A stretch of DNA of 44,690 nucleotides from Malaciobacter halophilus (GTDB taxonomy: Bacteria > Campylobacterota > Campylobacteria > Campylobacterales > Arcobacteraceae). The stretch is taken from contig NZ_NXIF01000010.1 in assembly GCF_002837275.1 (NCBI RefSeq), positions 1-44,690 of the forward strand, read 5' to 3'. The notes under the pieces were generated by a model. It was not told the DNA's origin. It searched no databases and saw only the letters and a program-made list of their open reading frames with translations. Positions 26,805-28,131 of the stretch are shown here, piece after piece. Position 1 is the stretch's first letter. Each line of letters starts with the position of its first letter. Both the position numbers and the translations under genes were made by a program.

Positions 26805-26835
26805 AAAAGTACCTCTTTGGTCAAGGGGTACTTTT
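26805..26835. terminator. Bidirectional terminator between aroC and the nifX-like gene
   Basis: AAAAGTACCTCTT pairs with AAGGGGTACTTTT (13 pairs, one G:T) around TGGTC. T runs follow on both strands. It serves aroC (+) and the convergent NifX-like gene (-), whose stop codon lies inside the stem. Confidence 0.85.
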
Positions 26836-27154
26836 ATATTTTTGTTAATTTATCTTGAACAAAATCACTATATAAAGCTAATACTTTTTTTCTATTTTTT
26901 TCTTTAAATATAGAAACTCCAACTTTTTTCAAGTCTTCAACAGGTAAACCAGTAGTATCTGCTGTAACTAAAGCATTAAAACTATTCTTTTTAAATAATT
27001 TAACAATATCCTCATTTCTATTCTCTAACATTTCAACTGAACTAATAGTTTGTCCACTTAAATTTAAAACAGTAAAATAGTTTGCATCTTTAACACTGCT
27101 TGCAACTTCTGACATGTAACTTAGATTTTCAACGGTAGGAAATACAATTCTCAT
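26834..27154 (-). CDS. NifB/NifX-type dinitrogenase iron-molybdenum cofactor family protein
   Basis: 106-residue cytoplasmic single-domain protein of the family that binds Mo/Fe-S precursors: MRIVFPTVENLSYMSEV at the start, then NYFTVLNL, a variable middle, and FNALVTADTTGLPVEDLKKVGVSIF. There is no nif cluster in the window, so a role in nitrogen fixation is not supported; many stand-alone members have unknown functions. The usual His/Cys metal ligands are sparse. It is divergent from a DUF134-NifX fusion gene and shares with it a region with a perfect inverted repeat. Ribosome binding site AAAGG. Confidence 0.75.
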   Translation of the reverse strand: MRIVFPTVENLSYMSEVASSVKDANYFTVLNLSGQTISSVEMLENRNEDIVKLFKKNSFNALVTADTTGLPVEDLKKVGVSIFKEKNRKKVLALYSDFVQDKLTKI

Positions 27155-27188
27155 TTTGTACCTTTAAGTATGATAATTTTATAAAAGG

Positions 27189-27244
27189 ATTTTTGTAAAA
27201 ACTTAATACTTGTTTATATTTATCTAAAAAGTTTTTACAAAAAT
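27189..27244. repeat. Perfect 16-bp inverted repeat, candidate operator
   Basis: ATTTTTGTAAAAACTT (27189-27204) and AAGTTTTTACAAAAAT (27229-27244) are exact reverse complements, 24 bases apart. Each arm is itself nearly palindromic (TTTTTGTAAAAA). It sits just upstream of the plus-strand TATAAT at 27253 and upstream of the minus gene, as an operator for a dimeric or tetrameric regulator would. As RNA it could also form a stem, but it is probably outside both transcripts. Confidence 0.7.
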
Positions 27245-27252
27245 AATGGTGT

Positions 27253-27258
27253 TATAAT
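27253..27258 (+). promoter_or_regulatory. -10 element for the leader or small RNA
   Basis: TATAAT in GTGTTATAATC; predicted start near 27264-27266, at the base of the first hairpin. It lies nine bases past the right arm of the inverted repeat, so a protein on the repeat would touch polymerase. Confidence 0.55.
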
Positions 27259-27261
27259 CTC

Positions 27262-27485
27262 GATTGACCCAAGAGAGGAGTGTTATTTTGTATGTTAGGC
27301 TAGACAACTAAACAAAACGGTCAATCTAATTATATTTGTTAATATATATTCTTCATACTTAACTCTAAAATTAAGTTCAACTAAGAATTAATTTGAGAGA
27401 GCGGGTTCACTTAGTTTATATGAAATTTATATTCACTTCATAAAATTATTACTTTTGAGTTAAGTCATATGTCAAGTATTTTTTT
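27262..27485 (+). ncRNA. Candidate structured RNA (independent small RNA or long leader of the DUF134 gene)
   Basis: Two fold units are visible. Unit A: GATTGACC (27262-27269) pairs with GGTCAATC (27319-27326), with an inner TTTTGT/ACAAAA stem. Unit B: ACTTAACTC...AAAA (27357-27370) pairs with TTTT-GAGTTAAGT (27453-27465), enclosing AACTAAG/CTTAGTT (379-385/410-416) and TATGAA/TTCATA (419-424/437-442): a three-way junction. Seven T follow at 27479-27485. It matches no RNA family I can name; I specifically do not see tmRNA, RNase P, SRP or tRNA signatures. Confidence 0.5.
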
Positions 27486-27503
27486 AAATTTTTAACAAAA
27501 TTA

Positions 27504-27512
27504 TGCTAAAAT
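27504..27512 (+). promoter_or_regulatory. Extended -10 promoter directly upstream of the DUF134 gene
   Basis: TGCTAAAAT, start predicted near 27519, 22 bases before the ATG with AAGGAG between. It lies after the T run that would end the upstream RNA, so the coding gene can be expressed independently of it. Confidence 0.55.
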
Positions 27513-27540
27513 CTATTATTCGTTAAATTTAAGGAGAGAA

Positions 27541-28131
27541 ATGCCTAGAGAAAAATTAGAAAGAAAATTAAATTTAAAACCAGTATGTAAATATTTCGGG
27601 CCCAAAGATACCGAAGCAAAAGAGGATGTAGTACTACTTCATGAAGAGCTAGAAGCAATTCACTTAATGGACTCATTTTGTATGTATCAAGAAGATGCTG
27701 CTAAAAAAATGAATGTTTCAAGAGCTACTTTTGCAAGAATAATAAAAAGTGCAAGAAAGAAGATTTCTCTTGCTTTAATCACAGGAAATAATATCAAAGT
27801 TCATGAAGTTAAAAATGAATTTCACATTGCCCTTTGCTCTCACAAACAAGATGAACTTGATTATGCAGAAGCTGAAGCAGAATATATTTGGATAGTATTT
27901 ATAAAAGACTATAAGCTAAAATCACAAAGCTGTATAAAAAACCCAATGTATCAAAATGAAGAAGAAGCAACTTGTAATGTTCTTCCGGATATTTTACATG
28001 ATTATGGTGTAAACTATTTTATGATAAAAGATATAGATTATGATTTAAAAATCTCACTAATTGCAAAAGGTATTTATCCTATATTAAAAGAGGAAGTTCA
28101 ACTAGAAAATCTAGTAGATATATTTCAGTAG
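27541..28131 (+). CDS. DUF134 DNA-binding protein fused to a NifX-like domain
   Basis: 196 residues in two parts. Residues 1-95 match DUF134 (PREKLERKL...VCKYFGPK, LHEELEAIHLMDSFCMYQEDAAKKMNVSRATFARII), a family with a sigma-region-4-like helix-turn-helix in MNVSRATFARIIKSARKKI. Residues about 96-196 resemble the NifB/NifX fold (FHIALCSHKQDELD, EYIWIVFIKD, LPDILHDYGVNYFMIKDI, KGIYPIL) but with Cys53, Cys103, Cys126 and Cys140 scattered as possible ligands. Typical DUF134 proteins are about 100 residues, so this is an extended form. It probably regulates transcription in response to what its C-terminal domain binds; target and ligand are unknown. Confidence 0.75.
   Translation: MPREKLERKLNLKPVCKYFGPKDTEAKEDVVLLHEELEAIHLMDSFCMYQEDAAKKMNVSRATFARIIKSARKKISLALITGNNIKVHEVKNEFHIALCSHKQDELDYAEAEAEYIWIVFIKDYKLKSQSCIKNPMYQNEEEATCNVLPDILHDYGVNYFMIKDIDYDLKISLIAKGIYPILKEEVQLENLVDIFQ

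Follow-up and report, generated by a model that had tools for sequence, protein, structure and literature searches.

The region under study lies in the window, the 44,690-nucleotide stretch of DNA that was analysed as a whole, in a spacer of approximately 390 bp between a small NifX-like gene and a gene encoding a DUF134-family regulator. This spacer was conserved in 6/6 genomes of the window's genus (g1), and comparison was extended to a sister genus (g10) represented by 16 species, including Halarcobacter sp. The principal features of the locus are as follows.

27541..28131, plus strand: DUF134-family regulator gene with an N-terminal HTH and a C-terminal NifX-like region (PF02001, E 2.3e-16)
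27507..27512, plus strand: probable −10 box of the DUF134 gene, TAAAAT (from the sequence; conserved in alignment A1)
27470..27475, minus strand: −35 box of the RNA promoter, TTGACA (in relatives with TATAAT at 17 bp)
27190..27465, minus strand: structured RNA spanning P1 to P4, approximately 280 nt (alignments A1 and A4 and strand test; 5' end inferred)
26834..27154, minus strand: small NifX-like gene, co-oriented with the RNA and lying 3' of it (PF02579 only at E 0.034, below the cut-off)

A DUF134 paralogue additionally matched PF02579 (E 0.0014). A strong intrinsic terminator of 13 pairs was seen at 26805-26835, where the aroC-like and NifX-like genes converge. No match was found in the plasmid collection, nor for an exact motif among the genome contigs, from which records close to the window may be missing.

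The first-pass annotation of this DNA had placed an RNA on the plus strand, running from a TATAAT at 27253-27258 to a run of seven T after 27478, and had described within it a closed hairpin (GATTGACC, 27262-27269, with GGTCAATC, 27319-27326) and a 13-pair stem (27357-27370 with 27453-27465), with a separate promoter serving the coding gene, namely the TAAAAT of DUF134. All of these elements exist where they were described; the region, however, encodes a conserved structured RNA on the opposite, minus strand. Folding of 27262-27485 gave a z score of +0.38 on the plus strand, which is no better than shuffled sequences, versus −2.25 on the minus strand, and the minus value was below the plus value in 12/13 loci tested. 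In g1 the main stem paired in 94/96 cells when read on the minus strand as compared to 82/96 on the plus strand, and in g10 the corresponding figures were 329/368 and 310/368. The excess on the minus strand consists of G.U pairs that become C.A mismatches on the plus strand, an effect observed independently in the two genera, and inspection by eye of the earlier 13-pair stem in a relative (L003) revealed two pairs of the same kind. As the stems of both genera pair better on the minus strand, the RNA is assigned to that strand, and we regard strand and structure as established. The TATAAT at 27253 turned out to be paired sequence on the 3' side of the main stem of the RNA and is not conserved as a promoter in other genera, while the T run lies upstream of the RNA, beside the −35 box of the minus-strand promoter. 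An independent plus-strand RNA delimited by these two elements is thus very improbable.

Conservation of the RNA exceeds that of the genes on either side of it. Two blocks were invariant in 48/49 and 37/38 columns among the six genomes (97–98%), versus 69% for DUF134 and 57% for the NifX-like gene, and conservation of this core is beyond chance. Compensatory changes, which had been proposed as a check, were found in g10, where 97.9% of cells were paired and six pairs and 15 cells had changed on both sides, a result reached by 0/500 shuffles that take no account of relatedness. Sliding the partner strand by 1–3 columns destroyed these pairing values, with no other register matching. Within g1 alone the covariation was weak, being reached by 95/500 shuffles that likewise ignore relatedness. 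The covariance model R2 matched once in each genome of the genus, in every case at this locus. The RNA is composed of four parts, listed here from its 5' end.

27453..27465, minus strand: P1, 5' strand (from the alignment)
27357..27370, minus strand: P1, 3' strand, part of the earlier 13-pair stem, pairing with 27453-27465
27379..27416, minus strand: P2 hairpin AACUAAG/CUUAGUU with the invariant loop GUGAACCCGCUCUCUC (37/38 columns invariant, six genomes)
27252..27337, minus strand: P3, long stem UAUAAUU-AGAUUGACC / GGUCAAUC-GAGAUUAUA (strand test)
27269..27318, minus strand: near-invariant core of P3, including a C/U-rich candidate antisense loop (48/49 columns invariant)
27190..27243, minus strand: P4, inverted repeat UUUUUGUAAAAACUU / AAGUUUUUACAAAAA (sequence comparison)

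P3 contains an inner hairpin with a GUCUAGC loop and an exposed C/U-rich strand, AACACUCCUCUCUU; in the window's own genome it matched R2 with an E value of 2.0e-25, and in an analysis of 25 pairs 100% of cells were paired. P4 is AU-rich, is followed by a short U run in some species only, and has arms that co-vary in L065 of genus g18 (GUAGAAACU/AGUUUCUAC). It is a possible weak terminator or attenuator. A coding frame of nine codons (GTG-AAC-CCG...) in P2 of the window was considered and rejected, since a one-base gap breaks the frame in three relatives and the frame is missing from other genera.

The RNA could not be assigned to any catalogued family, in agreement with the first-pass annotation, which had recognised none. 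The covariance search against Rfam that it had proposed gave no match for the RNA region and no credible match for its relatives: across the whole window nothing reached the gathering score of any of the 4227 families, and the interval 26900-27800 gave no match at E values up to 10. Permissive matches, including those in relatives (e.g. mir-506 and mir-276), were chance only. The suggestion of a divergent 6S RNA (RF00013), for which the size of the molecule and its long, abundant, AT-rich hairpins speak, did not hold. 6S was found by DNA identity at another locus in 6/6 genomes of the genus, and in three of them RF00013 scored 38.2, 35.1 and 24.3 bits there, below its gathering score of 46.4, while no Rfam 6S match was obtained here. 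A 6S identity is therefore hardly credible. In the window's genome 6S lies at G000:C45:134101-134274 (L131), directly upstream of purD, a position that it also occupies in C. jejuni and H. pylori (PMC3847290).

In order to evaluate whether the RNA is a leader or a molecule in its own right, its association with the NifX-like gene was followed across genera. In g1 and g10 the RNA leads into a NifX-like gene of like orientation, and no clear terminator was found between the two. In g3 (three genomes) and g18 the NifX-like gene is absent both from the locus and genome-wide, yet the locus retains its promoter and hairpins as well as the inverted repeat that follows them. In g17, a NifX-like gene with a short spacer has no comparable RNA. 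The RNA locus can thus occur without the gene and the gene without the RNA, and the two are therefore separable; the persistence of the locus without nifX is an established observation and bears out the earlier suggestion that the RNA can be independent of its neighbours. Covariance models R1 and R2 gave chance matches only beyond their home genus, so the case for a homologous RNA in different genera is built on synteny, the promoter, the layout of the stems and partial motifs.

These observations bear directly on a reading in which the RNA is solely a cis leader of the NifX-like gene, a riboswitch-like element or attenuator that senses a metal or cofactor and uses P4 or a hairpin at the Shine-Dalgarno sequence (CCTTT/AAAGG) as its expression platform. 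The direct passage of the RNA into nifX in g1 and g10 with no obvious second promoter, its distance of approximately 11–25 nt from the nifX ribosome-binding site in some species, the covariation and the conserved loops all fit such a leader. A cis riboswitch would, however, always precede nifX on the same strand, and this is not what g3 and g18 show, where locus and promoter were kept with no nifX in the genome, nor does it account for g17. The conserved loops are moreover C/U-rich, which is unusual in aptamers. The leader-only reading is on balance an unlikely one that nonetheless deserves attention. Judged from gene content and sequence, a separate function for the RNA appears to be the better account, with a double role, own function and leader, being likely in g1 and g10.

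As to the promoter of the RNA, a minus-strand TTGACA, a 17 bp spacer and a −10 box matching TATAAT at 5/6 or 6/6 positions were found in 29/30 related loci, the exception being the window. The promoter is divergent from the DUF134 gene and is framed by two GAACATATGTC-like sites with centres 30 bp apart, approximately three helical turns, of which one overlaps the −35 box and the other the start point. Genomes of the genus carried the motif GWCATATGTTC only 2–4 times each, either inside coding genes or ahead of one of the two DUF134 paralogues. The second paralogue (G000:C34:20149-20802, L109, with equivalents L116, L123, L112, L124 and L125) is divergent from a DUF4492-cydA operon, whose cydA, encoding cytochrome bd subunit I, matched PF01654 at E 2.3e-141, and here the same doublet frames the cyd promoter. 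The promoter-operator unit was also found upstream of DUF134 in g2, g8, g13, g18, g19 and g20, with the misplaced stretch L171 left out; in these genera its divergent partner was in most cases DUF4492-cydA and in one case a NifX-like gene. The doublet hence recurs at independent DUF134 loci and is otherwise rare. The conserved promoter with its operator doublet and the linkage of both to DUF134 are established. As the doublet precedes both DUF134 paralogues as well as DUF134 in other genera, the DUF134 protein is its probable binder and would control its own gene and the divergent transcript, which here is the RNA. DUF134 may by the same token be the cytochrome bd regulator of the Arcobacteraceae. 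Given that the predicted operator frames the RNA promoter, the sensor of the locus is more likely the DUF134 protein than the RNA, for which metal or cofactor sensing had earlier been a speculation. A literature search retrieved no published function for DUF134. Control of a small RNA promoter by a metal or redox regulator is exemplified by Fur and RyhB and by the nickel-regulated NikS; the control logic is alike, although the DUF134 regulator family and the present RNA are unrelated to those systems. A third, short DUF134-like match was observed in one species (G078:C1:90848-93687), approximately 2.3 kb from a second NifX-like gene.

The copy in the window departs from this arrangement. Compared with five other species of the genus, approximately 45 bp have been deleted at 27465/27466, a loss that takes with it the −10 box of the RNA promoter as well as one operator site of the pair and leaves the following.

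27466..27471, no strand assigned: CATATG, the operator half of the GAACATATGTC doublet that is left (comparison with five congeners)

A weak AATAAT remains 19 bp from the −35 box. Expression of the RNA in the window's genome is doubtful on account of the lost −10 box and operator site. The RNA domains are intact despite the deletion, so the loss may have happened recently, or the promoter may remain functional.

An exposed and conserved C/U-rich loop in a stable hairpin was looked for as a sign of action in trans and was found. The exposed strands are C/U-rich and nearly fixed within a genus, being AACACUCCUCUCUU in g1 and GUCUUUUCCCUAGUCAUUACUUUUUUUCACUC in g10; in g3 they carry a run of 5 to 10 C and in g18 they read UCAUUCCUUUAAUUG. 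By analogy this suggests a trans-acting antisense sRNA like CJnc190 or RepG. In Campylobacter jejuni, the C/U-rich loop of CJnc190 binds ptmG at its G-rich ribosome-binding site by base pairing (PMC8687705). CJnc190 comes from a related lineage and is, like the present RNA, a structured sRNA that exposes a C/U-rich loop, a likeness of features; it has other neighbours, while the RNA described here has a putative DUF134-type promoter with an operator doublet. RepG acts on G-repeats in Helicobacter pylori through a C/U-rich loop (PMC8295292) and is likewise a single-copy sRNA gene beside a regulator gene, and the g3 loop even reaches C9–C10; RepG, however, pairs by way of its terminator loop, whereas the loop here is internal and the neighbouring gene is DUF134.

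Among near-exact complements of the g1 loops, none was conserved at a ribosome-binding site, the sites being scattered or in coding sequence, and the g10 loop had no second site within 3 mismatches in the searches performed. A near match of loop B common to five genomes was discarded as it corresponds to conserved IERAGSKV codons inside a ribH-like gene. The absence of a trans target among near-exact loop complements would fit a reading in which the RNA is instead a protein-binding sponge, with near-invariant loops that titrate a regulator and no pairing to mRNA. Protein titration is the main alternative for the action of the RNA, and the 37-nt loop region of g10, which is almost unchanged across 16 species and longer than a usual seed, speaks in its favour. 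The loops are, however, wholly different between genera and lack a recurrent binding motif, for instance a series of GGA loops, and we rate a sponge as rather improbable, below the leader-only reading.

The explanation that we prefer, a minus-strand RNA with a DUF134-bound promoter and action in trans, would proceed as follows. A sigma-70 promoter, TTGACA-N17-TATAAT, would drive the RNA on the minus strand, in the direction of the NifX-like gene. The DUF134 protein, with its HTH and NifX-like sensor region, would bind the two GAACATATGTC sites, probably as a repressor, and would adjust its own expression and that of the RNA to a redox, metal or respiratory signal, with a DUF134 paralogue placed likewise over the cytochrome bd promoter. 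The RNA would fold into hairpins exposing near-invariant C/U-rich strands, and would base-pair in trans with ribosome-binding sites rich in purines. In genomes where the NifX-like gene follows, the RNA would double as the leader of that gene. Within this scheme we infer DUF134 binding, the sign of control, the signal and the trans action, and the explanation taken jointly stands, in our estimate, evenly balanced between being right and wrong. More tentatively still, the RNA could represent a dual-function class of the Arcobacteraceae: a DUF134-controlled leader of the NifX-like gene that is also trans-acting or protein-titrating, with a 37-nt ultra-conserved loop, a regulator that elsewhere sits over cytochrome bd, and two genera in which only the RNA is left.

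The locus holds a regulatory RNA, found in marine relatives of Arcobacter, that is new and absent from the catalogue. Small RNAs have scarcely been described in the host family, and this one, for which no catalogued family exists, comes with its strand, promoter and fold. It also leads us to propose a concrete operator for DUF134, GAACATATGTC twice, 30 bp apart, and with it a first putative regulon, comprising cytochrome bd, the RNA and DUF134 itself, for a family whose function is still listed as unknown.

In the g3 spacer upstream of DUF134 the C run of the loop measured 10, 9 and 5 in L052, L058 and L060, respectively, a length-variable tract that resembles phase-variable sites.
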